Assembly: GCF_024623725.1 (NCBI RefSeq)
Contig: NZ_JANKHG010000014.1
Location: 186,001 to 250,000 of the forward strand
Origin: Limnobacter parvus
GTDB lineage: Bacteria > Pseudomonadota > Gammaproteobacteria > Burkholderiales > Burkholderiaceae_B
Reading direction: 5' to 3'
DNA length: 64,000 nucleotides
Positions 5,447 through 31,295 of the stretch are shown here, piece by piece. The notes under the pieces were generated by a model, which did no database searches, had not been told where the DNA came from, and saw nothing but the letters and a program-made list of their open reading frames with translations. Position 1 is the first letter of the stretch, and the number at the start of each line of letters is the position of its first letter. Position numbers and translations under genes: made by a program.

Positions 5447-5500
5447 GAATTTGCGAAGTCACATGCCCAGTCCATTCCAGAATTCGCAAAGTCGCATACC
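5447..5500 (+). repeat. 33-bp-period direct repeat of the element A left arm
   Basis: GAATTTGCGAAGTCACATGCC (5447-5467) is repeated 33 bp later as GAATTCGCAAAGTCGCATACC (5480-5500), with four substitutions. The second copy is the outer left arm of element A and pairs with 5656-5672. The first copy has no clear partner. Confidence 0.7.
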
Positions 5501-5672
5501 CTCCTCCGCCAGAAAGCCTGAATTCCCCTTGTTGAATTCACACTGACTCACCGAGATTCGGCAAAACTGATGGCCGAACTCGGTGTCGGCTTACAGCCGA
5601 ACGTGGCGTGTGAGTTCAAACGGGCAGGCTTTCTTGAAGGCGGAATGACGGCAAAGCGAACTTTGCGAATTC
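5480..5672 (+). repeat. Element A: large branched palindrome (three-way junction)
   Basis: Non-coding, about 193 bp. Nested pairings: outer arms 5480-5495 with 5656-5672 (GAATTCGCAAAGT / ACTTTGCGAATTC); 5513-5520 with 5625-5632 (AAAGCCTG / CAGGCTTT); P1 5532-5543 with 5608-5619 (TTGAATTCACAC / GTGTGAGTTCAA). Inside P1 are two hairpins. P2 is CCGAG..CGGC (5551-5562) with GCCG..CTCGG (5573-5583). P3 is TCGGCT-TAC-AGCCGA (5586-5600). The same architecture recurs in elements B, C and D with compensatory base changes. Family unknown to me: a mobile hairpin element or a structured RNA. Confidence 0.8.
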
Positions 5673-5742
5673 TGGAACCGGCTGCTCGCCAGGTCACGAA
5701 TTTTCTCCGCTCACCAGTAGGGATCGATGAGCTGCTCTTTGG

Positions 5743-5921
5743 ATTTGCAGCAGCATCACATTGTTCTGCCGATTCAGGATCAAGTCGCCCGGTTTGATTC
5801 GCAGCGAGGGGCGACCTGTAAGGTCGATGCGAACACGCTTGGCGTTTCGCATGCCCCAAGCAAGATTCAACACCGGGAAATTCGACTTGGATCAAGGCAG
5901 AATGAGTGATGCGCTGCAAAT
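5743..5921 (-). repeat. Element D: divergent branched palindrome, inverted relative to element A
   Basis: Nested pairings: 5743-5759 with 5906-5921 (ATTTGCAGCAGCATCAC / GTGATGCGCTGCAAAT); 5778-5787 with 5883-5893 (GATCAAGTCG / CGACTTGGATC); 5788-5793 with 5872-5877 (CCCGGT / ACCGGG). Two internal hairpins lie at 5812-5826 (CGACC-TGTAA-GGTCG) and 5837-5861 (GCTTGG / CCAAGC). On the minus strand the core starts TTGAATC and ends GCGAATCAA, and its second hairpin resembles P3 of element A. It is therefore probably a diverged, convergently oriented relative. The strand assignment rests on that resemblance. Confidence 0.65.
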
Positions 5922-5947
5922 TACGAATCACCATCACTAACCACCAT

Positions 5948-7168
5948 TTAAATTACACCATCATCGGCCATTCGCTGAATGTCCTCAGCCGAATACCCAA
6001 GGTCCGCCAACACCTGCGCATTGTGTTCCCCAAGCTTCGGCCCAAGCCAGCGGGTTTGCCCTGGCGTTTCGCTTAGTTTGGGCACAACACCTGGCACTTT
6101 CAATGTGCGGTTCTCGCCAAACGCGTGTTCTTCAATCATGCCGCGCGCAGCAAACTGCGGGTCTTGAACAATGTCTTCAATGCTGTAAATTTTGCTGGCG
6201 GGCACATCTGCTTTTTCAAGCACTTCAAGTGCATCGTCAATTCTGCGTTCTTGGCACCACTGCGCAATGGTGCTGTCAATCAATTCGGTGTGGCGCACCC
6301 TGCCATCGTTGCTGGCCATGTCGGGATTCTCTGCAAAATCAGTTCGACCAATCGCAATCATCAAGCGCTTGAAAATTGCATCGCCGTTGCCTCCAATTAC
6401 AATGAATCCACCGCAACCACAGGTGTAAGTGTTTGAAGGCACAATGCCCGGCAAGCTGGCGCCGGAACGTTTGCGCACCACGCCTGCAAAATCATATTCC
6501 GGCAACAGGCTTTCCATCATGTTGAACACCGATTCATACAGGGCCACATCCACCACTTGGCCCTTGCCGGTTTTGTGGCGGTGCTGCAGGGCCATCAACG
6601 CGCCGATTACCGCGTGTAGGCCAGCCAGTGAATCACCAATCGATATGCCCACGCGCACTGGCGGCCTGTCGGTGTCGCCGCTCAAAAAACGCATGCCGCC
6701 AATTGACTCGGCAATGGCACCAAAACCCGGCCGGTCTTTGTAGGGGCCGGTTTGCCCGTAGCCACTTAAGCGCACCACAATCAAGGCGGGGTTCATGGCC
6801 TGCAACTGTTCGGGGCTTAAGCCCCACTTTTCCAATTGGCCTGGGCGAAAGTTTTCCACCAACATGTCGGCGCTTTCAATCAGTTTGCGCAGCACCGCCA
6901 GCCCGTCTTCCGTTTTTAAATTCAACGTAATTGATTTTTTGTTGCGGGCTTGCACTGCCCACCACAGGGAATTGCCCTCGTGCAGCACGCGCCATTTGCG
7001 AATGGGGTCACCACTGCCCGGTGTTTCTACTTTGATCACTTCTGCACCGAATTCACCCAACATTCGGCTTGCAAAAGGCCCTGCAATCAGCGAGCCCAAT
7101 TCAAGCACACGAATACCGGCCAAGGGGCCATTGTTGGTGGGTGTGGATTGCTCAGATTGATTTGTCAT
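5948..7168 (-). CDS. CaiB/BaiF family CoA-transferase (family III)
   Basis: A 406-residue family III CoA-transferase. It moves CoA between carboxylic acids through an aspartyl-CoA anhydride. N-terminal signatures GIRVLELGSLIAGPFASRML, FGAEVIKVE and NLKTEDGL are present; the catalytic Asp is probably Asp179 in GISIGDSLAG. ENFRPG and LSGYGQTGPY match the family. The substrate cannot be told from sequence (formyl-, succinyl-, carnitine- or mesaconyl-CoA type). It sits just downstream of recR on the same strand, separated by about 23 bases, with no pathway context. Confidence 0.9.
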   Translation of the reverse strand: MTNQSEQSTPTNNGPLAGIRVLELGSLIAGPFASRMLGEFGAEVIKVETPGSGDPIRKWRVLHEGNSLWWAVQARNKKSITLNLKTEDGLAVLRKLIESADMLVENFRPGQLEKWGLSPEQLQAMNPALIVVRLSGYGQTGPYKDRPGFGAIAESIGGMRFLSGDTDRPPVRVGISIGDSLAGLHAVIGALMALQHRHKTGKGQVVDVALYESVFNMMESLLPEYDFAGVVRKRSGASLPGIVPSNTYTCGCGGFIVIGGNGDAIFKRLMIAIGRTDFAENPDMASNDGRVRHTELIDSTIAQWCQERRIDDALEVLEKADVPASKIYSIEDIVQDPQFAARGMIEEHAFGENRTLKVPGVVPKLSETPGQTRWLGPKLGEHNAQVLADLGYSAEDIQRMADDGVI

Positions 7169-7191
7169 GGCGGCAGTTGGGAAAGCTGTAA

Positions 7192-7827
7192 TTATTCCGG
7201 ATCGGATCCCAACTGGCGGCGGTCCAACAATGCCCGCGCAACCGTGCTGGGGTCGGTGTATTCAAGCTCGCCACCAATGGGTACTCCGCGTGCAAGCCTG
7301 CTTACCTTCAGTGCCATGCGGCGAATTCTGTCGGTTAGAAACACCGCTGTGGCCTCGCCTTCGTTGGTGAAGTTGGTGGCCAGTATCACTTCCTTCACTT
7401 CGCTGTCATCCAGGCGTTGGCTAAGCTTCGGCCAATCGAGCGATTCTGGGCGAACCCCATCAAGCGGCGACGCCCTGCCCATTAAAACGTAGTAATACCC
7501 GCGGTAAGTTTGAGTGGCTTCAATGGCAGCCAAATCTGCGGGCGTTTCTACCACGCACAACAGGCCGGGATTGCGGCGTGCATCGCTGCAAATGGAGCAC
7601 ACATCGGCATGGCAAAAGTTGTTGCACATGCTGCAGTGGCGAATTTCAGCCACTGCTTTCAGCAACGATTCTCCCAAGGCCGTCGCGGCCTGGCGATCAT
7701 TTTGCAACAAATGAAAAGCCAATCGCTGAGCCGACTTTGGCCCCACACCGGGCAAGCGTTTAAGTGCTTGCACCAGATCAACCAAGGGGTCGAGGCCATC
7801 GAAGGCGTCAAACGCAGAACGGCTCAT
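7192..7827 (-). CDS. recR: Recombination mediator protein RecR
   Basis: A 211-residue protein. RecR with RecO/RecF loads RecA on gapped single-stranded DNA. It has an N-terminal helix-hairpin-helix ([20 protein letters not shown]), a four-cysteine zinc finger (Cys65, Cys68, Cys77, Cys80) and a Toprim domain starting [15 protein letters not shown]. The N-terminus is slightly longer than usual. It follows ybaB by nine bases, in the conserved dnaX-ybaB-recR operon. Confidence 0.97.
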
Positions 7828-7836
7828 GGGTGGGTT

Positions 7837-8169
7837 TTAGAATGGCATTTTGAAGCCGGGGGGCATGGGGAACCCAGCAGTCACTGATGACATTTTTTCA
7901 GTCATTGTGGCCTCGGCTTTGCGCACCGCATCGTTAAATGCAGCGGCCACCAAATCTTCCAGCATGTCTTTGTCTTCACCCAACAGCGAGGGGTCAATCG
8001 TAATGCGCTTGCAATCGTGCTTGCAAGTCATTACAACCTTCACCATGCCACCGCCCGATTGTCCTTCCACTTCAAGGGCACCAATCTCGGCCTGCATCTT
8101 GGCCATTTTTTCTTGCATCTGCTGGGCTTGTTTCATCAAGCCGGCCAGTTGACCTTTCATCATGTTCAT
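7837..8169 (-). CDS. ybaB: YbaB/EbfC family nucleoid-associated protein
   Basis: A protein of about 110 residues that binds DNA as a dimer. It contains the family-typical [16 protein letters not shown] helix, [13 protein letters not shown] strands and [20 protein letters not shown]. The start chosen is the ATG ten bases after an AGGAG; an in-frame TTG six bases upstream and two further ATGs just downstream are alternatives. It lies between dnaX and recR, the standard order. Confidence 0.95.
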
Positions 8170-8185
8170 ATCCAAATTTCTCCTG

Positions 8186-10078
8186 TCAAATGTCGGCTGG
8201 GCCAGTGTTGCTCAGCGTACGTTCTGAACCTGAGACCACGGTAGCGCCCATCAAGTTCTGTATGTCTTTCAAAAACGGGTCTTCCTGCAAAGCTTGTTTG
8301 GCACCATCAAGGGCCTGCCTGCGTGTTTCACTTTGCACGGCATGCGCAGTTTGCTGCACCTCACCGAACTGAACCTGTAAGCGCACAGCGCAACCGTAGT
8401 ACTGGCCCAGCGCACTTTCAAGCCGCGTCACCATGCTTACCTCAGTGTAAGCCTTTATGGCTGTACGCAAGCTGATTTGCAGCGTGTCGCCTTCACGGCT
8501 GGCTTCAACCAGTTCGGCCTGCACCAGCGCCTGGCGGGTCAAACCCTTTGCCGGCACTTCTTGCGACACTTGTGGCCAATTGGCTGCACTGGGCAAATCG
8601 CCGCTGGCGGATTGTGAAAATGCGGGTTGCGCGAAAGGCAAAATGGGCGCATTCGGTACATCGGCTGGCGCTTTCGCAATTGGGGCTGCGACCTGTGCCG
8701 ACGCGGATTTAGAGGCAGGCACATCGTCGGCGGTGTCCCAGGGTGGCGACTCATCGAAATTATCAGTTTGTGCAGGCGCTGAAGCAGCAGCCGAAGTTAC
8801 TACAGCCGGCACTACAGGATGTAATTCGGCGGCAGCGGGCTGCGTTGGTTGAGAAGCAACTAAGGATACTGCTGGCGGTGCTGTTTTTGCCATACTGGCC
8901 GATGCTGCGGGCGCCGACTTCTGAACTGGCACTGTCGCTTTCACCGCCGAGGGGGCCAAAGGCGCAACGCGAGTAACACCACCCTGCCCGCCCGGCTTGA
9001 AAGCCAACATGCGTACCAGCGCCATGGAAAAACCGATCGATTCTTCTGGCGCCAAGTGCAATTCAGCACGCGCGTGGGTGGCAATTTGGTAAATCAGTTG
9101 CAAATCTTCTGCACCGAATGCCCCTTGCAGGTTTTGCAGCGCAGCTTGGTCGGGGTCGTCTGCATCCAGCCCACCCGCGAAATGCGCCACTGAAAGTCGA
9201 TACGCAATGGCGGCCAGTTCATCCAGAATGGCACCAAATGGCGCACTGGCGGTGGCCAGCGCATTGCTCAATTCAAGCAGGGCCTTGCCATCGCCTTGGG
9301 CCAAAGCTTGCAACAACTGGTGCACCACTTGTTGATCCACTGCACCCAACATGGTTCGCACTGTTTCTTCGCCCACATGGCCTGCGCTGTACGCAATGGC
9401 CTGGTCGGTCAGGGAAAGTGCATCGCGCACACTGCCGCGGGCGGCCTTGGCCAACAGGCGCAGTGCACCGGGCTCAAAGGCGATTTTTTCCTCCGAAAGA
9501 ATGTGGGCCAAGTGGTCTGCAAGCTGATCGGGCGGCAATTGACGCAAGGCAAATTGCAGGCAGCGCGACAGCACAGTGGCTGGAATTTTTTGGGGGTCAG
9601 TAGTGGCCAAAATAAACAAGACATGGCCCGGTGGTTCTTCCAGCGTTTTCAGCATGGCGTTGAACGCACTGGTCGACAACATGTGCACTTCGTCGATTAC
9701 ATACACTTTGTAACGGCCAGCGGTGGGCGCATACATGGCGTTTTCAAGCAGGGCGCGCATCTCATCCACGCGCGTGTTGGTGGCGGCATCCACTTCCAGC
9801 AAATCAACAAACCGGCCTTGGCTAATTTCAACGCAAGCCTGGCATTTGCCACAGGGTGTGCGGCTAATGCCTTCCTCGCAATTCACCGCGCGGGCCAGAA
9901 TTCGTGCAATGGTGGTTTTGCCAACGCCGCGGGTGCCGGTAAACAGGTAAGCGTGGTGAAGGCGTTGATTATCAAGCGCGTGGGAAAGTGCTTTGACCAC
10001 ATGCGCCTGACCCACCAGCGAATCAAAGTCTCGCGGTCGCCATTTCCGAGCCAAAGCCTGAGAAACTGAATGATTCAT
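8186..10078 (-). CDS. dnaX: DNA polymerase III subunits tau/gamma
   Basis: About 630 residues, the clamp-loader ATPase of the replicative polymerase. The start is placed at [15 protein letters not shown], which matches the family N-terminus. It has Walker [10 protein letters not shown] (48-56), a zinc-binding set Cys67/Cys76/Cys79/Cys82, DEVHML in Walker B, and the LSRCLQF arginine-finger region (SRC). An Ala/Pro-rich linker (about 375-500) precedes the tau C-terminal domain that contacts the alpha subunit. I see no convincing slippery site for a gamma frameshift. The 4.5S RNA gene lies just upstream on the same strand. Confidence 0.96.
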
Positions 10079-10112
10079 GCGGATTGGGTCCAGTGATTTG
10101 ACCAAAACAAGA

Positions 10113-10206
10113 GGCGAGCCAGAACCCCGGCACTGACTTCACGGTTGTGGCTGCTTCCTTCCGGACCTGACCAGGTTGGCCGCTACGCCATGCGGGGAGG
10201 CCCGCC
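10113..10206 (-). ncRNA. ffs: Signal recognition particle RNA (4.5S RNA)
   Basis: On the minus strand the highly conserved SRP apical loop is present (CAGGTCAGGTCCGGAAGGAA, followed by GCAGCC). The ends pair (GGCGGGCC at the 5' end with GGCTCGCC at the 3' end), giving a single hairpin of about 94 nt, the bacterial small SRP RNA form that binds Ffh. It sits between addA and dnaX. Location upstream of dnaX is common in betaproteobacteria. Confidence 0.95.
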
Positions 10207-10216
10207 AGACTGAATT

Positions 10217-13200
10217 CTACACCGAAGTCAGCCAGTGAACTTCCCCGTGCCGGTCAATCAGTGCAGCTTGTGTGGGGGCCGGCTTGCTGCCCTTGTTCAG
10301 GGTCAGGTCAACTAAACCCACGTATTCAAGCACTTGCCCGGTGTATCCGGGCAAATTCAGTGAATTCACGGCCCATTTGTAGTCGAGCACCAGGAAACGA
10401 TCTTCCAATTCAAGCACCCGGTCGGCCCGCAACGATCGCCCATCGCCCTGCACCCATTCCAGTTCATTAAACACCCGGTTTTCACTGCGGCCTGCACCCT
10501 GCAGCCAGGGCTGCAAATCTGGTTTGCTCACCAGCATGCGGCACGCCTGTTGCACCTGTTGCAGTTCATCATCCCGAAGGGGCCTGAACACCATTTCGCA
10601 ACGCACCTGAATTTGCGCCCACCATTCATCAAATGGCTTCTCGGCCAGTTCATCCACCCATTCCAGAGCGGCATGCCAGGCCGTGCCCTTGCGCAATTCT
10701 GGCGAGGTGATTTTTGGCACAACTTTGCCAACGGGTGTGCTCATGGCTTGCAACACCGGGAATTGTGGGCGCACCCACACTGCGGGTGGGTCGAACAAAC
10801 CCGCCAGTTCAATTTGGGCAGGGTGCTGGCCGGTGTTCGTGGCATCGGTCAGTACTTCCCGCCACTCTTGATGCACCTGCGTAGCAAAAGGCAGTAGCCG
10901 TTCATACCAGCCCTTGCTGGCGCCGCGTTTTTCACTGCCACTTAGATGAATGGAATTCCGTGCACGCGTTAGCGCCACGTACAGCAAATGGTCTTCCTCA
11001 TCGGCATAAGCCTGTTGTTCAATTGCTTGTGCAGCGGCCCTGCCTGGGCTTGGGTTGCTCAAATTGTTCATCACTGTGACCGAATTCGGATGCGATTCAC
11101 CCAAGGCCCAGTCAATTAGCAAACCCGCATTGCTGCCACCGGGTTTGGGAGCAGAGTTTGCATCGAACAACCACACATGGTCGGCCTCCAAACCCTTGGC
11201 AGAATGCACGGTCATAATGCGCAGCACATCGGGGTTGTTGGCTGCGCCCTCGCTGTCGGAACTGGCATAGGTTTGCAACTTGATTGCTTCTTCAAGCGCT
11301 TGTTGCAAACTCGGAAAACGCCCTTTGTTCAAACCCAATGCCCAGCCTTTCAACCAGTCCCAATGCTCGGCCATCATCACGCGTTGCCGCGGTGTTGCTG
11401 AATTCAAATACTTTTCAGATGCGTTGGTGTCGGCCACCACTGTCGACAAGGTTTCAAACAGCGGCAAGGCGCGCGCCATGCTAAGCCACCCTGAAAGTTG
11501 CGCGTACAAATCAGACCATGGCTTTTCACCCTGCTGCGCCAGGTTTTCTAGCGTGCCCCACACGGTGGTGGTTTGTGTGGTTTTGGCGGCTTGCATCAGT
11601 TCTTGAAACTGGACCGAGCTGATCGAAATCAATGGACAACGCAGCAATTGCAACAGGTACAAATTGGCATGGGGGTCGTTCAAAAATCCAAGCAGTGCAA
11701 TGGTGTCTGACCACACCTGCGAGGTGTAACGCTCGCCCTTGTCTTTAATGGTATAAGCCAGCCCAGCTTCACGCAAAGCAGCCATCAGCGGCACACCACT
11801 TTTGTGCGCACGCACCAGCACCATCACTTCGCTTAAATGCTCAATGCTGCCGTTGTTCAACCACTGTTGCAGGGTTCGCACCACGCGCTGGGCTTCATCC
11901 GGGGCCGCCTCATTTGGACCACTCTCATCTTTCAACAGCTTGGGGTAAATATTCAAACCACTCAAAATTTGTTCTGAGTCCACTTTTGCCAAACTGGTGT
12001 GTGCACGGAAAGCGGTTTGCCCCCGCGTTTGCCCCGGCTCGAACACCTTGTTCACCACATCCACCACAGCCTGTGCGCAACGCCGTGTTGAATCCGATTC
12101 CAAAGTTTTTGCATTGAAATTTTCCACCAGCCAACTGCGTGCATGGTTGAACAAGCGCGCTTCGGCGCGGCGGAACCGGTAAATGGATTGTTTGGGGTCA
12201 CCCACCAAAAACACGCTGGGCTTGTCTTCCCCACTGTAATCTTGCAGCCACAGTTTCAAAATGTTCCACTGCACCGGGTTGGTGTCTTGGAATTCATCCA
12301 CCAACAAATGCCGCACACGTGTGTCCAGCTTTTGCTGCATGTAGGCGCGTTGCTCGTCATTCATCAACATGCGCAAGGCAATTTCTTCCAGGTCGTCGAA
12401 ATCGCAAATGCCTTGCTCGTCTTTAATGGCCTTGTAGGTTTTGAATAGCGGCTCAATCAGCTTGGCCAGTGCATCGGTGGCCTGCAGGTCAAGCTGGTCT
12501 TTTTCCAGTTGCAGGGCTTGTGCAGTTTGCAAGGCAAGGCCTTCAAGAACTTGCACATAATCCGCTTCGTTCACAGCAGCTTTTTGCCCAGCCGTGGGCT
12601 TGCTGAAAGTTTTGCTGGGTTCACTTTTGGAAGTCAAACAAACTGTTTTTAGAAGCGAAAAAACTTCAAGCTTGTCCTCGCCTGCTTGCAAGGCAGTCAG
12701 TGCGCGTTCAATTTCCACCGCAGTGCTTTGTTGCTTGGGTGTACCCAAAGCCAGCCAGTTTGCGGCCTGTTGCCATTGGCTCAAGTAATGCTTGTTCTTC
12801 AACACCTCGACTGGCCATTCTTCGCTGGGGTCGATGCCAAACACAAAGCCCAAGGGTGGTGCTTCGCTGTTGTGCAACCACAGGCTGCAGGCCACGCGAT
12901 TGGTCAAGGCCTTGTACAACACCTGCCGCACCACAGCCCGGTCCATTTGCGAGGCCAAAGTGTCAAAGGCATTCAACAATTCTGATGGTTCATTCAGCAG
13001 GTTTGCGGTGAACACATCAATGGCTTCGTCCATCCAGAACAGGGTTTGATCTGTCGGTTCACTTTGCCGCGAAAAGCCGCTGGCCAGCGGTGCCATTTGA
13101 CACAAGGAAGCGAACCAGCCGTGAAAGGTATCAATGGTTACACCACGGGAATTCGTCAGCACCTCGCCCGCCAGCGCACGGGCTTTTTGCAGGTTGGCCT

Positions 13201-13483
13201 CATTGGCAACTGCGCCGCGTTCGGTTAACAACTCAACAAGTTTTTCGTCGTTGACCAAGGCACATTCCCGCAGCAGCCCGAACAGGCGTTCTTTCATTTC
13301 CTGCGCCGCTTTGCGGGTAAAGGTAATCGCCAGAATTTGATCGGGCCGGGCACCATCCAGCAACAGGCGAAACAGGCGCGCAGTGAGCAACCAGGTTTTG
13401 CCACTGCCCGCGCAGGCCTCCACCACCACACTGTGGGCAGGGTTGCAGGCAATTGAGGTGAAGTTAACGTTTGATTCACTCAT
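10217..13483 (-). CDS. addA: AddA-like UvrD/Rep helicase-nuclease (RecB-type)
   Basis: About 1088 residues. Superfamily 1 helicase with C-terminal PD-(D/E)XK nuclease, acting with AddB in double-strand break resection. Walker A is EACAGSGKT (22-30), with ITFTRKAA (motif Ia), LLVDEFQDTNPVQW (motif II), LVGDPKQSIYRFRRAE (motif III), MTVHSAKGLEADHV (motif V) and YVALTRAR (motif VI). The nuclease part has GTAWHAALE, LRADRVLEL and FLVLDYKWA. The start is set at the second of two adjacent ATGs, six to seven bases after GAGGAGG. It overlaps the 3' end of addB, so the two are coupled. A longer frame runs upstream but lies entirely inside addB. Confidence 0.92.
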   Translation of the reverse strand: MSESNVNFTSIACNPAHSVVVEACAGSGKTWLLTARLFRLLLDGARPDQILAITFTRKAAQEMKERLFGLLRECALVNDEKLVELLTERGAVANEANLQKARALAGEVLTNSRGVTIDTFHGWFASLCQMAPLASGFSRQSEPTDQTLFWMDEAIDVFTANLLNEPSELLNAFDTLASQMDRAVVRQVLYKALTNRVACSLWLHNSEAPPLGFVFGIDPSEEWPVEVLKNKHYLSQWQQAANWLALGTPKQQSTAVEIERALTALQAGEDKLEVFSLLKTVCLTSKSEPSKTFSKPTAGQKAAVNEADYVQVLEGLALQTAQALQLEKDQLDLQATDALAKLIEPLFKTYKAIKDEQGICDFDDLEEIALRMLMNDEQRAYMQQKLDTRVRHLLVDEFQDTNPVQWNILKLWLQDYSGEDKPSVFLVGDPKQSIYRFRRAEARLFNHARSWLVENFNAKTLESDSTRRCAQAVVDVVNKVFEPGQTRGQTAFRAHTSLAKVDSEQILSGLNIYPKLLKDESGPNEAAPDEAQRVVRTLQQWLNNGSIEHLSEVMVLVRAHKSGVPLMAALREAGLAYTIKDKGERYTSQVWSDTIALLGFLNDPHANLYLLQLLRCPLISISSVQFQELMQAAKTTQTTTVWGTLENLAQQGEKPWSDLYAQLSGWLSMARALPLFETLSTVVADTNASEKYLNSATPRQRVMMAEHWDWLKGWALGLNKGRFPSLQQALEEAIKLQTYASSDSEGAANNPDVLRIMTVHSAKGLEADHVWLFDANSAPKPGGSNAGLLIDWALGESHPNSVTVMNNLSNPSPGRAAAQAIEQQAYADEEDHLLYVALTRARNSIHLSGSEKRGASKGWYERLLPFATQVHQEWREVLTDATNTGQHPAQIELAGLFDPPAVWVRPQFPVLQAMSTPVGKVVPKITSPELRKGTAWHAALEWVDELAEKPFDEWWAQIQVRCEMVFRPLRDDELQQVQQACRMLVSKPDLQPWLQGAGRSENRVFNELEWVQGDGRSLRADRVLELEDRFLVLDYKWAVNSLNLPGYTGQVLEYVGLVDLTLNKGSKPAPTQAALIDRHGEVHWLTSV

Positions 13484-15992
13484 CATCGCCCTCCTCGCCT
13501 GCGGTGTTCTCATTGAGTTCCGACCGGCTTTCTGGCCTGCAAACACCACGCACGGAACACCATTCACAGGCATCGCCAGGGTTGGCTTGCCACACAGCCT
13601 TGCCTGAGAAAAAAGTATCCAGTTCATGCGAAAGTGCGCTGAGCAGCACCTCGCCCCAAGACTCGAACCCCTGCTCGCGGTGCTCATCGCTCAGTGGCGG
13701 AAAGCTGACCCAATCCACGTTGTCTTTGTGCAAACCCAGAAAATCAAGCTGGGCATTGGGGCTGCGCAACATTGCTTGGTAAGCCGGTAGCTGGGGCTGG
13801 CTTAAGGGGTCGGCCAATCGTTTTTTCAGGGCTGTGGGGTTGGTGAATTTAATGTCTGAAATGGCCAAGGCATCGCCCCGCGCATCCAGCCTGTCTACCC
13901 GGCCTTTCAAGGCGAGCGATGTACCACTGGGTTGAAGCACCAGGGCATTTTCCACTTGTTGCTCAGCACCTTTGAACTGCCAGCCTTGAATTTGGCGCTC
14001 CATCAACTTGCCTGCCACACGGGGCACAATTTGATCAAAAAATTTCAGAAACGGGTAAACGGTGGCGCGGTCATCCTGTCCCAGTTTGCCCCACACCGCT
14101 TGGGCTTGGTCCAGTAAGGCTTGTTTCCAGGCCTCTAGCTGGTTCACAGCCTGGCCTGCCTGGGACATGTGCTGTGCTGTTTTTTCCAGCACCTTGTGCA
14201 CAAAAATGCCGCGCAATTGTTCATAGCGCATGGCACCTTCTTCACGCTGCTGGGGCCAGGGCAAGGCATGCTTCAGACCAAAACGCAGGCGGCAGGCGGC
14301 CCAGTCGTCCAGCGCTGTCACCCTTACCGATTCAGGCAACGACCCCCCATTGCCCAAAGCGCTTAAATTCAATGGCAGCTCGGGCTGCTCACGCACTTCA
14401 ATTTCAAGGGGTGCGGGTTGGTGGTGCCAAGTGGGCGACCAATGCAGGTCAAGGTTTTCTGCGCGCCTTAAAACAATGTCCAGCCAGGTTAATTCAGGCA
14501 GCAGCATTTCCGGTTTGCCAGCCACCTGGGCGCTGTGCAGTAGCGTGACCTGATCGCTGCGCAACAGCAATTCATACAATGCGGAAATTTTTTGAATGCG
14601 CGCAAGCCTTGGGCCGGGAAAACCCAGTTCCTGTGCCACCGCCGGCGGCAACAGGCCAGGTGGGCTTTCCTGAAAATGTGATTGCGCACAACCCAGCACC
14701 AACACGCGTTTGAATTGCCGCATTCGGGTACTCAGCAGCGGCACCATGCGCACCGAGCTTTCAATGTCCAAAGGCCGAAAGCGCTGCGATTCAGCCCAGC
14801 TGCGCCATGCGGCCAAAAACTCGTCGGCATCAAATTCAGTTTGGGCGGGTACTTGGCGCATCAGCCCCAATGCGGTCAGTAACTGCTGACCAGCTTCATC
14901 CTGTTGCAAGGCTTCATCAAGGCCATGCCTTGAAAAAAATTCTGAAAATGAAGTGGCCCACTTTGCCAATGTGTAGCGTTCGCTGATTTTGCCAAATGCC
15001 CAAGGCTCGAAGTGTTCAAGCGGCTGGCCAGTGAAAGGCTGTGTCACATCGCTTAGCTGCCCCTGTTCTGCATACTGTTGCAACAAGTGATCAAACCAAC
15101 CTGCCACGTTCGATGTCGACAAGCGCCAACCAGTGCGGTCGTCGACCAGCACGCCCGCATCGGCCAACAAACCAACCATTCGGCGGGCGGCCAAACGATC
15201 AAGAACCGCCACTGCAATTTCAGTGTTGGGGTCGGTATTCAACCAATCCAGTATTTGTCGGGCAGCCTGTTGGGCTTGGGTGGTTTCGTCGGGTGCAACT
15301 TGTAATACCACCGGGCTGGGTTGTTGTTCGAACCGCTTTTTACCCAGTTTTTGCCAGGGTATTGGACCTTCTACAGCAGGCAGTTTGAATACCTGTACAG
15401 GTACATTGGGGTAGAACAGCTCAAGCCACAAACCGGGTACGGTTTCACCATCGTCAAACCAAACAATGGTTTTGGGGTTGTGGGTTAATGGCACCGCAGG
15501 CTTGGGCAGCAAAGCGGCAAGTTCTGTGTGATAGGTTTGGGCAAGCGTGGCGACAACTTGTGCCTCTTCGGCCGCAAATGCATTGTGGTTTGAATACTCG
15601 GCCAACGCGGTGCTGTTGCGTTTTTGCACCAACACCTGCCGCAGGGCCAATTCCAGATATTCCTGTGCAAGCCCCCACAGCTGCATGCGCGAAGACCCAC
15701 CACCCAGCAAAGCCAGTTCACGCAGTACGCCAACCAAGTCAGCCTGCAAGGCCAACCATGGCCCCATTGCAGCGGGCTGGCTTAGCCGGTCAGCGGTTTG
15801 TACCCAAGGCCCCAGGCTGGCCTGCCCGTGATGGTGCTGGGCCCAACACCGCTTAAAGCTTGAAACCGTTTCAATGCGCGGCATGACCCACAACACATCG
15901 GCAAAACCAGACCCCGCCTGTTCAAGCCAGGCGAAAGCAGACTGAAAAGGGCTTTCTAAAAGTGGATCCAGGGCAATGGGCTGTTGGGTCAA
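13476..15992 (-). CDS. addB: AddB-like PD-(D/E)XK nuclease with iron-sulfur staple cysteines
   Basis: 838 residues, starting at a TTG since no ATG or GTG lies nearby. The N-terminal two thirds is a degenerate helicase-like fold. The C-terminal nuclease has GIFVHKVLEK, ALKGRVDRLDARGDALAISD and IKFTNP, then QLPAYQAML. One cysteine before the nuclease (DWAACRLRFGL) and three after it (CEWCSVRGVCR) match the 4Fe-4S staple of AddB/RexB enzymes. It is the first gene of the pair and overlaps addA by a few bases. Together they are expected to do RecBCD-like end processing. Sequence divergence from model AddB makes the symbol tentative. Confidence 0.82.
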   Translation of the reverse strand: MTQQPIALDPLLESPFQSAFAWLEQAGSGFADVLWVMPRIETVSSFKRCWAQHHHGQASLGPWVQTADRLSQPAAMGPWLALQADLVGVLRELALLGGGSSRMQLWGLAQEYLELALRQVLVQKRNSTALAEYSNHNAFAAEEAQVVATLAQTYHTELAALLPKPAVPLTHNPKTIVWFDDGETVPGLWLELFYPNVPVQVFKLPAVEGPIPWQKLGKKRFEQQPSPVVLQVAPDETTQAQQAARQILDWLNTDPNTEIAVAVLDRLAARRMVGLLADAGVLVDDRTGWRLSTSNVAGWFDHLLQQYAEQGQLSDVTQPFTGQPLEHFEPWAFGKISERYTLAKWATSFSEFFSRHGLDEALQQDEAGQQLLTALGLMRQVPAQTEFDADEFLAAWRSWAESQRFRPLDIESSVRMVPLLSTRMRQFKRVLVLGCAQSHFQESPPGLLPPAVAQELGFPGPRLARIQKISALYELLLRSDQVTLLHSAQVAGKPEMLLPELTWLDIVLRRAENLDLHWSPTWHHQPAPLEIEVREQPELPLNLSALGNGGSLPESVRVTALDDWAACRLRFGLKHALPWPQQREEGAMRYEQLRGIFVHKVLEKTAQHMSQAGQAVNQLEAWKQALLDQAQAVWGKLGQDDRATVYPFLKFFDQIVPRVAGKLMERQIQGWQFKGAEQQVENALVLQPSGTSLALKGRVDRLDARGDALAISDIKFTNPTALKKRLADPLSQPQLPAYQAMLRSPNAQLDFLGLHKDNVDWVSFPPLSDEHREQGFESWGEVLLSALSHELDTFFSGKAVWQANPGDACEWCSVRGVCRPESRSELNENTAGEEGDDE

Positions 15993-16179
15993 AACGTGCG
16001 GTGAGTGTAGGTAAGGGTCATGAAAACAAGCGTTTGTTTGTGTTTTTGTTCAATTTCGCTGTACCATTCAGAATAGCATGTTCTTAAATGAAGAACTTTC
16101 ATTGTCTGCGCGTGTGCTTTAATCACCCAGACACGCTTTGTGAATACCCTCCAAAGCAATTACCCACTTGAGGATTTAA

Positions 16180-19967: not shown

Positions 19968-19969
19968 AT

Positions 19970-21543: not shown

Positions 21544-21594
21544 CAAAGGTGCTTGGTTCACAATAGGGCCTCTTTTGCTTGCTGGGTATTGCAC

Positions 21595-22065: not shown

Positions 22066-22096
22066 GTGTGGTAGTAAAAGGTTTACTCTAGAAAAC

Positions 22097-22126
22097 AAAA
22101 AGCCCGGTGATTTCTCACCGGGCTTT
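22097..22126. terminator. Bidirectional intrinsic terminator
   Basis: AAAAGCCCGGTGA and TCACCGGGCTTTT form a perfect stem around TTTC, with A and T runs at opposite ends. It can therefore serve both the DUF1232 gene and the convergent symporter gene. Confidence 0.93.
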
Positions 22127-22182
22127 TAAACTTCCTGCGCCCTGCCTTTCAGTGAAGGCAGTGGTTATTGTTAATTAGTCAA

Positions 22183-23985
22183 TCAGTGACCGGTCGCCAT
22201 GCCCGAACCACGTGGGGTACGAACATTTTCAACCAAGTGCTGAATATGCTCTGGAGGTGGTGCCGTAACCTTGCTCACCAAGTAGGCGATGGCAAAGTTA
22301 CAGATCGCGCCCACGGTACCGAAGGCTTCAGGCGTGATGCCGAAGAAACCGTTGGTGCCACCCACAAGTTCAACATACTCAGTGCCCTTGATGAACAAGA
22401 TGCCTTTGTGTGCAAACACGTAAAACAGCGTTACGACCAAACCAGTCAACATACCCACGATGGCGCCTGTGGAGTTCATGGTCTTGGAGAAAATACCCAT
22501 CATGATCACTGGGAACAATGATGATGCTGCAATACCGAAGGCCAAGGCCACAGTACCGGCCGCGAAGCCTGGCGGGTTCAAGCCCAAATAACCGGCCAGA
22601 ACAATCGCGCCAGCCATGGAAATCTTGCCGGCCAGTAATTCGTTCTTTTCAGAAATATTGGGGTTAAATACACCCTTGATCAAGTCGTGTGACACCGCAG
22701 ACGAAATCGCCAGCAACAAACCCGCCGCAGTCGACAGCGCAGCAGCCAAGCCACCCGCAGCCACCAAGGCAATTACCCAGTTGGGCAACAACGCAATTTC
22801 AGGGTTGGCCAGCACCATAATGTCGGCGTTCACTGTCATCTCGCTGCCTTTCCAGCCAGCGGCTTCAGCCTTGGCCAGGAATGCCTCGTCTTTGGACTTG
22901 TCGTTGTAATACTGAATGCGACCGTCGCCGTTCTTGTCTTCAAAAGTCAGCAAGCCCGTGGTTTCCCAACGACCCATCCAAGCTGGTTTCTGTTCGTTTG
23001 GAAGTTGCGCTTCAGGTGCAAACAAATCACCACCGGTGACCACGTTGGTGTTCACTGTGGCGTGCAGGTTGTAACGGGCCATTGCGCCAACAGCAGGTGC
23101 TGTGGTGTACAGAATCGCAATAAACACCAATGCCCAACCGGCTGACGAACGCGCGTCTTTCACAGTAGGCACTGTGAAGAAGCGGATGATCACGTGGGGC
23201 AGACCCGCTGTACCAATCATCAAACTGATGGTGTAGAAGAAAGTGTTCAGATAGCTACCCGCCGGTGTGGTGGTGTAAGTGCTGAAACCTAGATCTGTCA
23301 CCACTTTGTCCAAGGTGGCCAGCATGGGTTGGCCATTGGCCAGCATGTCGGAACCCAGACCCAATTGCGGCAGAGGGTTGCCTGTCAGGTTCAAGGAAAT
23401 AAAGATTGCGGGGATGGTGTAAGCGAAAATCAGCACAACATACTGTGCAATTTGCGTGTAAGTAATGCCCTTCATGCCACCGAATACAGCGTACATGAAC
23501 ACAATACCCATGCCGACATAAATACCCACTTCAGCAGACACACCCAGGAATCGGGAGAATGCCACACCCACGCCTGTCATCTGGCCGATTACATAGGTAA
23601 TGGAAGCGACCAACAAACAGATCACAGCGACTGTACGTGCTGTGTTGGAGTAGTAACGATCACCAATGAATTGGGGTACCGTGAACTTGCCGAACTTGCG
23701 CAGGTAAGGTGCCAGCAACATCGCCAACAACACATAACCGCCTGTCCAGCCCATCAGGAATACGGAACCGCCGTAACCCATGTTGGCAATCAAACCCGCC
23801 ATGGAAATGAATGAAGCGGCAGACATCCAGTCAGCCGCAGTCGCCATGCCGTTGGCCACCGGGTGAACACCACCGCCAGCCACATAAAATTCACCCGTGC
23901 TGCCAGCACGGGCCCAGAACGCGATACCGAGGTACAGCGCAAAACTCAAACCCACGATAACGTAGGTGATTGTTTGCAAATCCAT
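22183..23985 (-). CDS. Sodium:solute symporter (VC_2705 subfamily, acetate/propionate type)
   Basis: 600 residues, many transmembrane helices of the SSS family. Matches ActP-like carboxylate transporters: GEFYVAGGGVHPVANGMATA, ADWMSAASFISMAGLIA, GYVLLAMLLAPYLRKFGKFT and VPQFIGDRYYS, and GGLAAALSTAAGLLLAISSAV. An extra hydrophilic loop of about 90 residues (about 310-400, with an EDKNGDGRIQYY calcium-binding-like stretch) is typical of the VC_2705 subgroup. It is cotranscribed with the DUF4212 gene 12 bases upstream, the standard partner. Substrate is inferred from family. Confidence 0.9.
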   Translation of the reverse strand: MDLQTITYVIVGLSFALYLGIAFWARAGSTGEFYVAGGGVHPVANGMATAADWMSAASFISMAGLIANMGYGGSVFLMGWTGGYVLLAMLLAPYLRKFGKFTVPQFIGDRYYSNTARTVAVICLLVASITYVIGQMTGVGVAFSRFLGVSAEVGIYVGMGIVFMYAVFGGMKGITYTQIAQYVVLIFAYTIPAIFISLNLTGNPLPQLGLGSDMLANGQPMLATLDKVVTDLGFSTYTTTPAGSYLNTFFYTISLMIGTAGLPHVIIRFFTVPTVKDARSSAGWALVFIAILYTTAPAVGAMARYNLHATVNTNVVTGGDLFAPEAQLPNEQKPAWMGRWETTGLLTFEDKNGDGRIQYYNDKSKDEAFLAKAEAAGWKGSEMTVNADIMVLANPEIALLPNWVIALVAAGGLAAALSTAAGLLLAISSAVSHDLIKGVFNPNISEKNELLAGKISMAGAIVLAGYLGLNPPGFAAGTVALAFGIAASSLFPVIMMGIFSKTMNSTGAIVGMLTGLVVTLFYVFAHKGILFIKGTEYVELVGGTNGFFGITPEAFGTVGAICNFAIAYLVSKVTAPPPEHIQHLVENVRTPRGSGMATGH

Positions 23986-23997
23986 TTAATGGTCTCC

Positions 23998-24258
23998 TTA
24001 CTGTTCGTCGACGTCGTGTTCGCGATCAATCTCGCCCATTTTCTTTGCGTAATAGAAAATGAGAACAATGAAAGCGTAAATAGAACCTTGTTGGGCAAAC
24101 CAAAAGCCCAGTGGATAACCACCGACGCTGAATTGATTGAGTTGCTCAACAAACAGAATGCCAGCGCCGTAAGACACCAAAAACCACACGATCATGATCT
24201 TGGTCAACAGGCCGATCGTCGCTTTCCAGTAGGCATCACCGCCCTTTGGGTTGCTCAT
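23998..24258 (-). CDS. DUF4212 small symporter-associated membrane protein
   Basis: 86 residues with two hydrophobic helices (IMIVWFLVSYGAGILFVEQL and YAFIVLIFYYAKKM). The pattern WxATIGLLTKIM, then FSVGGYPLGFWFAQQGSIYA, is that of DUF4212 proteins, which are nearly always encoded directly before VC_2705-type sodium:solute symporters and are thought to be a small subunit. The charged tail ends REHDVDEQ. Confidence 0.92.
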   Translation of the reverse strand: MSNPKGGDAYWKATIGLLTKIMIVWFLVSYGAGILFVEQLNQFSVGGYPLGFWFAQQGSIYAFIVLIFYYAKKMGEIDREHDVDEQ

Positions 24259-24545
24259 CGCTTGTCTCCTTTTTTAAGGTTGTTGTTACCCCAATTCCCG
24301 GAATACAGGGTCACATCCCTCCGGGCTTAGGCTTGCGAACGAGTATCAAAGCGAAAACTTACGCCAAACTGAAAGACAAGCAGATACATTCCCCACCCCT
24401 CCCCCCTAAAAAGGGATTCCCAAAACGTCCAATTGCTACAATTGCCCAGCTTTTCCCCCCTTAATTGGGTGATCGTAGTTTTTGATCAAAGACAAAATAA
24501 AAGTCATATAGAGAGTGCCAACCCTTATCCAATTGAAGGCAAGCC

Positions 24546-27370
24546 ATGACTTTGAATACCGAACAACTCGCAAGCAACCCGAGCCATCGTGCCCATTTAT
24601 TCGACGCGCTCACCGCGAGCCAGGCTTGTATCGAATTTGATCTGAATGGTCAGGTTCTGTACGCCAACCCAAACTTTCTGCAAGTATTCGGGTATTCCGA
24701 AGTTGATGTACTTGGCAAACACCACAGCATGTTTTGCACGCCCGACACCGTGGAATCAGACGAATACGAATTGTTCTGGAACAAACTTCGGACTGGCGAG
24801 TTTCAAGACGGCGAATTTCTGCGGCTCGACTCGCAGGGTCAAGAGGTGTATATCCGAGCCAGTTATAACCCGGTTAGAAATGACAACGGCGATTTGATAT
24901 CTGTCATCAAAATTGCAAGCAACATTACGCAGGCGAAAAGCAAATCGCTGGTGAATGAAGGCAAAGTGGCCGCAATTGACAAAACTCAAGCTGTAATTGA
25001 ATTTGACACATCGGGTCGAATACTGAATGCGAACGACAACTTCTTGAACACCATGGGCTACCGGCTGCAAGAAATTGTGGGCCAGCACCATCGCCAGTTT
25101 TGCGAAAAGAACCACGCGGAATCTGAAGACTATAAGCACTTCTGGGCAGCGCTGGCCCAGGGTGAATTTAAATCAGGCGAGTTCATGCGCATAAACAAAC
25201 AGGGGCGCCCGGTGTGGCTGCAAGCCACTTACACACCGATCATTGGTGTAAATGGCAAGCCAGTGAAAGTGGTTAAATTTGCCAGTGACATTACAGCGGC
25301 AAAAACAAAAGCAATTGAAGACGACGGCAAAGTAAGCGCCATGAACCGGTCACAAGGAATTATCGAGTTTGATTTGGGCGGCCATATTTTGCATGCCAAT
25401 GACAATTTTTTGAATTTGACCGGTTACGCACTAAACGATGTTGTGGGCCAACACCACAGCATGTTCGTGGACAAAGAAGAGGCCAGCAGCGGCGCATACC
25501 GTACCTTCTGGCGCAAATTGGGCCAAGGTGAATTCGATTCTGGCGAATACCTGCGTGTGGGCAATCATGGCAAGCGCATTTGGATTCAAGCCAGTTATAA
25601 CCCAATTCTTGATCTTGAAGGCAACCCAATCAAGGTCATCAAGTTCTGCAGCGACATTACCCAATCGAAGCTTCATGCCATTGAAACCCAGGCGCGCATG
25701 GATTCCGTTTCAAGCACCAGTTGCATTGTTGAATTCAATGCCGAAGGCAAGATTTTGAACAGCAATGAGCTGATGCAGAAAGCACTGGGCTACAGTGCAA
25801 CAGACCTTGCAGACAAATCAGAATCTTTTCTAATGTTTGATGAAGAGCGCAATGACAGCAGCCATTTCAAAACCTGGAACGACCTGCGCGACGGCAAGAA
25901 CCTGGCTGGTGAATTCCGATACAAAGGCGTTGGCGGTAAAGAAGTGTGGCTTTCAGGCACACGTAGCCCTGTGATCGGGCTTGAGGGCCAGTTGATCAAA
26001 GTGGTGCTGATGTTACAAGACATCACGGAATCGAAACTTTCTCGTCTGGATTCTGAAGGCAAGCTGGGTGCAATTGATCGATCACAGGCAGTGATTGAAT
26101 TCGACATGCAAGGCAAGGTGCTTTCGGCCAACAATAACTTTTTGAATCTGATGGAATATTCCGCGGAAGAAATCATTGGCCGTCACCACCGCATGTTTGT
26201 TGACCAGGCCTATGCAGCCACACCGCAATACCAGGCGTTCTGGGAAAGCCTAGGCCGCGGGCAGTTTGAGTCGGGTGAATACAAGCGCGTGGCCAAGGGC
26301 AATCCTGAGGTCTGGATTCAAGCCACCTACAATCCGATTTATGACCCGCGTGGAAACCTGGTGAAGGTGGTGAAGTTCGCAAGTGACGTCACCGAAAGCA
26401 AACTGAAAAATTCTGAATTCGAAGCGAAAGTAGAGGCCATCAACCTGGGGCAGGCCGTGATCGAATTTGATCTGGATGGCCATGTGCTGAAAGCCAACCG
26501 CAACTTCTTGAACGCAATGGGATACACCTCGCGCGAAATTCAAGGCCAACACCACAGTATTTTCTGTTCACTGGAATACACACAAAGTGAAGAGTACCGC
26601 GACTTCTGGCTGAAACTGAATGAAGGCAAATTCGTGAGTGGTCGTTTTCACCGCGTGGGCAAATTCAACCGCGATGTCTGGATTCAGGCCACCTACAACC
26701 CGATCATGGACTTGAACGGCAATGTGACCAAAGTGGTGAAATATGCCTACGACGTAACGAAGGAAGTGATGCTGGAACAAGGCATCACCAAGAAGTCGAC
26801 TGAAATGCGTGATCGTGTTTCAAAATTGGTCGAAAGCATTACTACCATTGCAGGCAACTCGAATACAGCAACCCAGTTGGCGCAAAAAGGACTGGATGCA
26901 GCCAATTTGGGCAGCCGGGAATTAAAGCGATCCATCGCGGCCATCCACGCCATTCAGAATAGCTCCAGCAAGGTGTCGGAGATTGTTCGTGTAATCGGCG
27001 ACATTGCGAACCAAACCAATCTGCTGGCATTCAATGCGGCCATTGAGGCGGCGCGCGCCGGGCAACACGGCGTGGGTTTCTCGGTGGTGGCAGCCGAAGT
27101 ACGCAAGCTGGCTGAAAGCAGTTCAAGTGCTGCGCGTGAAATTTCTACGTTGATTGAAGAATCAGTGGCACAGGTTGAAGAAGGGGTTGAGGTTAGCCAG
27201 AACGCAGCACACAGCTTTGAAGGAATTTTAAGCAGCGTGACTGAAACCGGCGAAAGCGTGAAACAAATTACACATTCAGCCGAGCAGCAACGCGATCTGG
27301 CCATTGCGGTGAACCGTTTGATTGAAGAACTTACAGGCGGATTGACCAAGCACACAGGCAATCAAACCGC

Positions 27371-27374
<4 letters not shown>
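24546..27374 (+). CDS. Soluble methyl-accepting chemotaxis transducer with six tandem PAS domains
   Basis: 942 residues, no transmembrane segment. Six PAS units of about 122 residues occupy roughly 16-740, five of them close copies (IEFD, G.(I/V)L.AN.NFL, then GQHH.MF). The fourth is divergent (SESFLMFDEERND instead of the HH motif). Each ends (A/C)SDIT..K or similar. A short signalling domain follows (about 745-935) with the MCP hairpin tip IGDIANQTNLLAFNAAIEAA and RAGQHGVGFSVVAAEVRKLA. Likely a cytosolic redox, oxygen or metabolite sensor acting on CheA. It overlaps the triple-CheW gene by 4 bases (ATGA). Confidence 0.93.
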
Positions 27375-30086
<2,712 letters not shown>

Positions 30087-30196
30087 TTAAATCATTTCAA
30101 GCACATGGGCCTGAAAACCACGATTTGAACCTCAATTCCAGCAATTCAATCACTTGTTTGGCACAATGAGGCCATTCGATACAAAAGAAGTACCCC

Positions 30197-30721
30197 ATGC
30201 AATCACCTGCCAAACCCGAATTCATTCGCGCCGAGAAACGCGAAGGCGACGCCGAGCTAGACGCGCATCTGTTTCGGCAAGCACTGGCCCAGTTCGCAAC
30301 GGGCATCACCATCATCACCACCAAAAATGCCGATGGCAAGTATGTGGGTGTGACCGCCAATTCATTCAACTCGGTTTCATTGCACCCACCCTTGGTACTG
30401 TGGAGCCTGTCCAAAAAAGCCAGCAGCCACGATGCATTCGCAGCGGCCACGCACTACGGTGTCAGTGTGCTTTCTGCTGACCAGGAAGAACTTTCGCACC
30501 ACTTTTCGACATTCAAGGGCGACCGGTTTGCAGGCCTTGAGGTGATTGAAGGCTTGGGCGGCGCGCCGCTGATTCCAGACGCCCTGGCGCATTTTGAATG
30601 CAAAGTGCGCAATCGCCATGATGAAGGCGACCATTTCATTATGGTGGGCGAGGTGTTGCGCTGCGATTTTCGGGAAGGCGAGGCGCTGGTGTATCGGTCG
30701 AGGAAGTACTTCCGGAACTGA
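30197..30721 (+). CDS. Flavin reductase family protein (FMN-binding)
   Basis: 174 residues. Flavin reductase-like split barrel: FRQALAQFATGITIITTKNA, VGVTANSFNSVSLHPPLVLW and ASSHDAFAAATHYGVSVLSA, ending with DHFIMVGEVLRCDFREGEALVY. These enzymes bind FMN and either reduce free flavin for a partner monooxygenase or act as oxidoreductases. No monooxygenase is adjacent, so the partner is unknown. It is followed by a 600-base gene-free gap with structured repeats. Confidence 0.9.
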   Translation: MQSPAKPEFIRAEKREGDAELDAHLFRQALAQFATGITIITTKNADGKYVGVTANSFNSVSLHPPLVLWSLSKKASSHDAFAAATHYGVSVLSADQEELSHHFSTFKGDRFAGLEVIEGLGGAPLIPDALAHFECKVRNRHDEGDHFIMVGEVLRCDFREGEALVYRSRKYFRN

Positions 30722-30738
30722 GCGACGGTTGAGTGAGC

Positions 30739-30780
30739 AATCGGCGTGAGTTACACACCCAATCGGCGCGAGTCCCAATC
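30739..30780 (+). repeat. 22-bp-period direct repeat of the element B left arm
   Basis: AATCGGCGTGAGTTACACACCC (30739-30760) is followed immediately by AATCGGCGCGAGTCCCAATC (30761-30780). The second unit is the outer left arm of element B. Confidence 0.65.
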
Positions 30781-30948
30781 TTTCGCCTGAAAACCTGTAG
30801 ATCCCTTTTTGAAATTCACACTGACTCAATCCGCTCGACAAAACTGAAGGTCGATCGGATTGTCAGCCTACGGCTGAACGTAGCGTGTGAATTCAAACGG
30901 GCAGGTTTTCTTGAAGGCAAAACGATTGGGACATCGCTACCGATTGGG
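30758..30948 (+). repeat. Element B: large branched palindrome, same architecture as element A
   Basis: Nested pairings: 30758-30780 with 30924-30948 (CCCAATCGGCG..AGTCCCAATC / GATTGGGAC..CGATTGGG); 30785-30797 with 30902-30918 (GCCTGAAAACCTG / CAGGTTTTCTTGAAGGC); P1 30808-30821 with 30885-30897. P2 is ATCCG..CGAC (30829-30839) with GTCG..CGGAT (30850-30860). P3 is TCAGCC-TAC-GGCTGA (30863-30877). Relative to element A, P2 and P3 change on both strands so that pairing is kept. The unpaired segment AAACGGGCAGG after P1 is conserved. Confidence 0.8.
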
Positions 30949-30989
30949 CTTGAATTGGGACATCGCTACCGATTGGGCTTGAATTGGGC
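30925..30989 (+). repeat. 29-bp tandem repeat (2.2 copies) of the element B right arm
   Basis: A 29-base unit beginning ATTGGGACATCGCTACCGAT and ending TGGGCTTGA occurs twice without change (30925-30953 and 30954-30982), with a partial third copy ATTGGGC. Each unit can pair with the element B left arm. Confidence 0.9.
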
Positions 30990-31044
30990 CAGCAACCAGG
31001 CCGGTGGTTCATCACGCATGCGCGATTGACCACTGTGGTAAAGA

Positions 31045-31295
31045 CTCGTCAGCACCGGTTCAGCCAACTCGGCAGTGGATTTGCTTGGTCCGCACTTGAA
31101 GAAAACCGCCCCGTTTGAATTCATTCGCAGTGTGCGGCTGAAAGCCGACACCGAGACTCGGCCATGTTTTTTGCCGAGCTCGGTGAACAAGAATAAATTC
31201 AACAAGGGATCAAGCGGCTTTCAGTGCGGAGCAAGTAATACGCGACGAGGTGGCGAGAAGCGGTTTTCAGTGCGGAACAAGTGAACCACGACGAG
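31045..31295 (-). repeat. Element C: large branched palindrome, inverted relative to element B
   Basis: Pairings (plus-strand positions): CTCGTC 31045-31050 with GACGAG 31244-31249 or 31290-31295; 31084-31109 with 31214-31235 or 31260-31281 (CTTGGTCCGCACTTGAAG.. / GCGG(C/T)TTTCAGTGCGGA(G/A)CAAG); P1 31115-31126 with 31191-31202 (TTGAATTCATTC / GAATAAATTCAA). P3 is CGGCT-GAA-AGCCG (31135-31147). P2 is CCGAG..CGGC (31151-31162) with GCCG..CTCGG (31173-31183). In P1 the outer part differs from elements A and B on both sides while still pairing. The right arm exists in two copies 46 bp apart. Confidence 0.78.

Follow-up and report, generated by a model that had tools for sequence, protein, structure and literature searches.

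Results

The two element sites of the window

Four long branched palindromes, here called A, D, B and C, stand at two sites between genes in a 64,000-nt stretch of the Limnobacter parvus genome, the window (G000:C4:186001-250000 of 3.18 Mb; genomes are labelled from G000 onwards, G000 being the window's own). At the first site, element A (5480..5672, plus strand; left or L type, arm class I; inverted repeat I9), whose outermost complementary arms extend to 5468-5684, faces its opposite-orientation partner D (5743..5921, minus strand; right or R type, D-like). They lie between tal, encoding transaldolase (4480..5430, plus; TIGR00874, above cut-off), with its 3' end towards A, and a gene for a CaiB-type CoA-transferase (5948..7168, minus; NCBIfam CoA-transferase models, all below cut-offs), with its 3' end towards D. 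At the second site, element B (30758..30948, plus; L type, arm class II; supported by its fold z and model R1) faces its opposite-orientation partner C (31045..31295, minus; R type, C-like). Here the neighbours are genes for a flavin reductase family protein (30197..30721, plus; NCBIfam flavin reductase models, all below cut-offs), 3' end towards B, and a CysB-family regulator (31325..32254, minus; NF009327, above cut-off), 3' end towards C. Both flanking gene pairs are convergent, and the elements themselves form two convergent pairs, A+/D- and B+/C-, spaced about 70 nt and 96 nt by the bounds given here and 118 and 167 nt by their model cores. The original prediction, made from the window alone, had placed the four copies correctly and had overlooked both this pairing and the minus strand of C and D.

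It had also predicted strong folds at these positions, and they are found: compared with dinucleotide shuffles, the fold z was -10.8 for A, -9.6 for B, -6.6 for C and -9.9 for D, and for each element 0 of 200 shuffles were as good. Element A consists of outer arms, a collar and a branched head. The 5' collar, GCCAGAAAGCCTG (5508..5520, plus), also delineated in the collar survey, and the 3' collar, GGGCAGGCTTTCTTGAA (5622..5638, plus), are made of columns that are mostly invariant or near-invariant in alignment A1. Between them the head (5521..5621, plus), assigned by a fold with DNA parameters and by covariation, comprises a P1 stem, a hairpin P2 with an A-rich loop and a hairpin P3 with a 3-nt loop; with DNA parameters, 5528-5624 folds with a z of -6.4. 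Arms are also repeated in tandem outside the stems. The 3' arm of B has a second tandem copy (30925..30982, plus; direct repeat D6, 29 bp x 2, 100% identical), and the outer arm of C has one as well (31212..31300, minus; direct repeat D3, 43 nt at a spacing of 46, 81%).

A covariance model of L cores, R1, scored A with 148 bits at 5508-5645, B with 151.6 bits at 30785-30922 and C with 109.7 bits at 31089-31226, while D received 128 bits at 5763-5889 from R2, the corresponding model of D-like cores. A, B and C form a single family; D is a distant relative that has a different head and the same fold, so that the single design proposed for all four holds for their fold and not for the head of D. 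Rfam gave no match to A, B, C or D, even at E up to 1, in line with the prediction, which likewise placed the layout in no named family.

Covariation and mismatches in the stems

The compensatory base changes that had been read from the four copies are real, since 22 of 39 pairs covary in a MAFFT alignment of 29 copies. Among 145 aligned copies, 32 of the 39 pairs have changed on both sides, 94.7% of the cells are paired and 0 of 500 shuffles were as high on all five measures; this larger alignment was fitted to the model and hence leans towards structure, and its shuffles are uncorrected for relatedness.

RNA under selection tolerates G·U and rejects A·C. A control with signal recognition particle (SRP) RNA from the same order, 30 sequences treated in the same way and with fewer variable pairs (12 of 33), followed this rule, with 128 G·U (12.9%) against 2 A·C (0.2%) among 989 cells. 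The 145 copies held 71 G·T (1.3%) against 62 A·C (1.1%) among 5589 cells; without three ill-aligned pairs the counts were 42 and 46, and in 36 copies less than 85% alike they were 13 and 9. Complementarity is maintained equally on both strands, and whatever keeps the arms complementary therefore prefers neither. As both mismatches are equally rare, the fold appears to be kept in DNA and not as a stranded RNA. This symmetry fits DNA hairpins or cruciforms, the latter being one option of the original prediction, or the copying of one arm from the other, and it would also come from equal selection of both strands as RNA.

Copy number and gene context

A search with the covariance models located further copies in the window's own genome and in related Limnobacter. 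In the own genome, R1 gave 58 rows for 56 places, after two reverse-strand echoes were dropped, and R2 gave 19, a total of 75. The complete genome G009 gave 87 R1 rows and 30 R2 rows, of which 28 were used (one reverse echo, 741582-741690, and one weak match, 2105473, were left out), a total of 115. A DNA search with element A matched 14 of 40 genomes, 13 of them Limnobacter; two single weak matches, one in a genome outside the genus, G017 (E 0.007, 22 nt), and one in the Limnobacter genome G014 (E 0.007, 27 nt), were treated as chance. When 300 genomes of the order were searched with R1, under stricter filters and with 10 candidates scored per genome, two matched, both Limnobacter, and none of the other 298 did. 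An exact pattern matched 69 genome-contig stretches from Limnobacter or from Burkholderiales or Gammaproteobacteria metagenome-assembled genomes (MAGs) lacking a genus. Among the genomes sampled, the family was found only in Limnobacter. Viral contigs (searched with the exact pattern), plasmids and phages gave no match, in searches that could have passed over diverged copies, and a phage or plasmid origin was set aside accordingly. No published description of such Limnobacter repeats was found in the literature searched, which lacks most subscription journals. In G002, the neighbourhood of the homologue (L168) holds runs of N and apparent tRNA genes; this genome is incomplete, so that copies missing from it say little.

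Neighbouring elements less than 300 nt apart were convergent in all 122 of 122 cases: 26 of 26 in the own genome, 47 of 47 in G009 and 49 of 49 at the named loci, a set of 69 loci in which 20 had no close partner, several of these being truncated by the locus end. The gene context was scored for 41 of the 48 units of the own genome, the seven without a retrieved locus being left out. The flanking genes converge at 29 of these, run in the same direction at 12 and diverge at none. Among the 51 neighbouring gene pairs of the window, 7 run convergently and 7 divergently, a baseline that includes both element sites and was obtained with a similar gene caller (both callers are crude open reading frame scorers that differ slightly). 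The distance from the core to the neighbouring gene was 30-150 nt on 35 of 41 left sides and 34 of 41 right sides.

Heads, collars and arms

A collar, GCCnGAAAACCTG ... GGGCAGGTTTTCTTGAA, encloses the head. In a set of 97 different elements bounded by the collar, alpha (two head clusters merged by hand) is the commonest head; it is carried on three arm classes, defined by regular expressions, in 14, 19 and 47 cases, with 5 unassigned. The other heads occur on class I (gamma), class II (delta and zeta) and class III (beta). Alpha, beta and gamma heads all fold into the same fork.

The exchange of heads was seen by comparing G005 with G007, which are mostly 83-94% identical in the stretches that align. 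Three orthologous loci were scored. At two of them the heads were only 57-58% identical, where shuffled heads reached 48% on average and 57% as the best of 200, while the collar was 97-100%, the right arm 98-100%, the left arm 84-89% and the flank 92% identical; the left flank at C6_15.3k reached only 70%, probably since a tandem arm shifts the comparison. At the third locus the heads were 98% identical. A further head swap, judged by eye, was noted at cysB among G005, G013 and G007. The head is replaced in place by a different sequence of the same fold, with arms and collar retained. Within one genome the heads of different loci were nearly alike where tested, the alpha heads of four loci in G005 being 96-100% identical and two beta heads in G007 90% identical. 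Moreover, one C-like element of G005 sits within a stem built from the arms of another family, which indicates that layers can nest; this is the likely reason why outer arms differ between copies and still pair. One L copy (L077:6040-6167, the same as L036:301-428) is without most of the P3 hairpin and keeps the remaining head.

Occupancy of sites between species

The presence of whole units varies between species. The empty-site comparison proposed for tal could be made over 14 genomes, and in three outgroup species the tal-CaiB interval has no element and a gap of about 15-30 nt, measured by eye. The pair is present in G000, G006 and G009; G008 has R close to a contig end; G003 has an R relic adjoining foreign sequence; G005, G007 and G013 retain a scar that includes part of the R arm; and in G001, G011 and G012 the stop codons of both genes overlap, as if a deletion had reached into tal. 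Elsewhere, G005 carries a D-like insert of about 376 bp without a counterpart in G007; G013 likewise has no R2 match there, but its interval differs.

A second palindrome of 240 bp adjoins the D-like insert, and its interior is inverted between G005 (L237:1137-1375, that is G005:C6:41137-41375) and G007 (L240:13478-13695), as expected from recombination between its arms. In G003, next to the R relic by the CaiB gene (L182; L190:11913-14001), the sequence resembles by eye an integron attC site with cassette genes.

Cargo between widely spaced pairs

Seven pairs, 1.1-9.2 kb apart, enclose cargo. At one locus of G000 and G009 it consists of an NlpC/P60 gene (Pfam, for G000) and a lipoprotein-like gene, with homologues in a MAG (L089), and another pair of G009 holds a C92 peptidase gene. 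The cargo at dnaB-phoH differs between species. In G003 it takes up 9.2 kb, with Avs4 (PADLOC E 4e-198), a DUF3828 protein and several accessory genes between L and R (L191:612-10081); in G009 it takes up 1.2 kb and includes homologues of two genes from the G003 cargo; and in G001 it takes up 1.4 kb and includes a PIN (VapC-like) gene. For the own genome, tblastn did not bear out an assignment of locus L067 to dnaB-phoH, and this locus is left out of the comparison. A HicA gene with a HicB-like neighbour, identified by eye, adjoins an L element with no R detected (L084/L193) and was not counted as enclosed. Neither a replicase nor a nickase nor a transposase was recognised among the 20 cargo protein entries scanned, which cover a part of the cargo frames. 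Cargo may be secondary, as these few cases stand against 122 close pairs too tightly spaced to hold a gene.

Candidate enzymes

The Y1 transposase (PF01797) was undetected in 15 of 16 Limnobacter genomes, the window's own included, by a search that was positive in 5 of 14 control genomes and that covered, among HUH families, Y1_Tnp only. G008 is the sole Limnobacter genome with this enzyme, in two copies. RAYT/REP and IS200/IS605 membership was rejected, as the required transposase was undetected in the own genome, and the mobilisation of either kind that had been suggested for the elements is left unsupported.

SbcD (TIGR00619), a subunit of the hairpin nuclease SbcCD, was undetected in 16 of 16 Limnobacter genomes, in a search restricted to SbcD and to this genus, with 13 of 14 controls positive and 8 over the cut-off. 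Cupriavidus metallidurans is a relative of Limnobacter. An excerpt of PMC2864759 lists sbcCD in that species, so SbcCD is not missing from all relatives. In Escherichia coli, according to an excerpt of PMC3315005, inverted duplications arise at an interrupted palindrome of 246 bp in cells lacking both SbcCD and RecA.

Discussion

Our results describe a family of interspersed palindromes in which an L and an R that face each other make up one convergent unit, and each of the two has outer arms, a collar and a forked head with two hairpins. We give about an even chance to the reading that these are modular DNA palindromes, acting as hairpins or cruciforms in DNA and not as RNAs, which spread by replacement of heads and arms together with a putative insertion activity. 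Recombination or template switching would replace heads and arms by way of the collar and arms that copies share, and new units or layers could be brought in by an activity acting in trans that prefers existing hairpins or terminators. Copying templated by the hairpin would keep both arms equal, and the apparent lack of SbcD would make long palindromes tolerable. Their siting between convergent genes might reflect either tolerance of, or benefit from, a transcription block on both sides. Selection on the fold, as originally predicted, agrees with a fold that is clearly maintained; the structured-RNA form of that idea is contradicted by the strand-symmetric mismatches. The outcomes set against the prediction beforehand did not occur: related genomes hold further copies, covariation is strong and Rfam is silent.

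Several observations weigh against this reading. No enzyme that moves the elements was found in the searches described above. No partner within 2 kb was seen for 21 of 75 matches in the own genome and for 15 of 115 in G009. At the few sites read, neither an exact insertion boundary nor a target duplication was readable. G005 and G007 both carry elements at the three orthologous L loci that were scored and at cysB, so that movement to new sites looks slow. The convergent placement also fits a host function. Finally, SbcD was also undetected in the element-poor or element-free Limnobacter G014 and G015, and its absence is therefore not sufficient and could play only a permissive role.

It is tempting to go further and to propose a class of mobile DNA in which the forked head, as the replicating unit, homes into resident hairpins via the collar, giving nested giant palindromes whose inward-facing pairs become exchangeable ends of cassettes able to carry toxin-antitoxin and defence genes, all in a lineage where SbcD is undetected. 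Such a class is an unlikely extension, and any part that the pairs play as cassette ends is an inference. Just as doubtful is the idea that the host maintains the elements as bidirectional 3' ends, the pair ending or stabilising both convergent transcripts and gene conversion keeping the copies alike. The excess of convergent (29 of 41) over divergent (none) contexts and the regular distance of 30-150 nt to the genes (on the left in 35 of 41 units, on the right in 34 of 41) are what this would produce. However, a terminator scan gave one site in A/D and none in B/C, where shuffles gave means of 0.6 and 0.8, and intrinsic terminators were discarded as giving no more sites than shuffles. In addition, in three relatives the tal and CaiB genes overlap at their stop codons and have no element between them; a terminator does not require a head swap to a different sequence; and strand-symmetric mismatches argue against a stranded RNA, while still being compatible with equal use of both strands.

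We consider it improbable that a cargo element has L and R as its terminal repeats, that is, as forked ends like parvovirus-type hairpins that prime their own copying, with most copies internally deleted. Close L and R elements always face inward, seven pairs hold cargo of 1.1-9.2 kb that differs between species at dnaB-phoH, hairpin-primed copying would maintain arm symmetry, and the inverted interior of the 240-bp palindrome also agrees with it. But the cargo may merely have entered a neutral spot, and no replicase, nickase or transposase came to light in the 20 entries scanned, a part of the cargo frames; among HUH families, the search covered Y1_Tnp. Slightly less probable still are by-products of replication errors, in which hairpins arise, grow longer and become perfect through template switching and the correction of quasi-palindromes in cells lacking SbcCD, without selfish or host function. 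Symmetric purging of mismatches, tandem iterated arms and the undetected SbcD are all accounted for in this way, but about 100 dispersed related copies, their strict pair orientation and the conserved bases of collar and loops are left unexplained. A structured RNA family, another option of the original prediction, is the least probable of all. The strong covariation, with 32 of 39 pairs changed on both sides, would suit it; on the other hand, G·U and A·C are nearly balanced (1.3% and 1.1% of cells, 71 against 62) where SRP RNA has 12.9% and 0.2%, and Rfam is silent. An RNA was therefore abandoned as the principal explanation.

The family is unnamed in the sources searched; it works somewhat like REPINs, is shaped somewhat like terminal hairpins and falls outside the REPIN definition tested. 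REPs are defined, in an excerpt of PMC8266576, as palindromes of 20-50 nt after a conserved tetranucleotide, mostly GTAG. Like REPINs and BIMEs, the Limnobacter elements are palindromes outside genes, arranged as inverted pairs around a linker that varies, and have many copies per genome (122 of 122 close neighbours are convergent, and singles exist). Unlike them, Limnobacter members are about 190 nt long and forked, the invariant columns of their L cores include no GTAG-type tetranucleotide, the Y1 transposase of RAYT or TnpA-REP was undetected in their own genome, heads and arms are exchanged separately, and some members enclose cargo.

Correia repeat enclosed elements and MITE-like repeats are non-coding and interspersed, with inverted arms and a core. 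The Limnobacter elements share these traits and differ in having no constant pair of terminal repeats, their arms differing by class and still pairing; compared with MITEs, they show no clear target duplication at the few sites read, where boundaries are indistinct. Parvovirus terminal hairpins have a long stem and a fork of two short hairpins, and are inverted at both ends of the unit. In shape alone, the Limnobacter elements resemble them by the stem, the fork and the inverted pair; unlike them, they are chromosomal and bacterial, their L and R are only distantly alike, and the scanned cargo has no Rep-like gene. Integron attC sites work as folded DNA and lie close to mobile cassettes. The Limnobacter elements can be likened to them in both respects, and are unlike them in size, in motifs and in their inverted, not direct, order.

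If the preferred reading of modular DNA palindromes is true, large forked palindromes, of a kind that SbcCD keeps in check in E. coli, are able to multiply and to become diverse within a bacterial chromosome, with their parts inherited separately. Limnobacter could thus provide a natural test bed for the survival of long palindromes, for the equality of their arms and for hairpin pairs as landing or exchange sites of accessory genes. The count of G·T against A·C mismatches would also give a simple way of telling, for a family of repeats, whether its fold is one of DNA or of RNA. Apart from the palindromes, the window contains, at 25023-26554, four 68-nt repeats with spacings of 366 and 732 nt within a reading frame of 942 aa, perhaps corresponding to tandem sensor domains.

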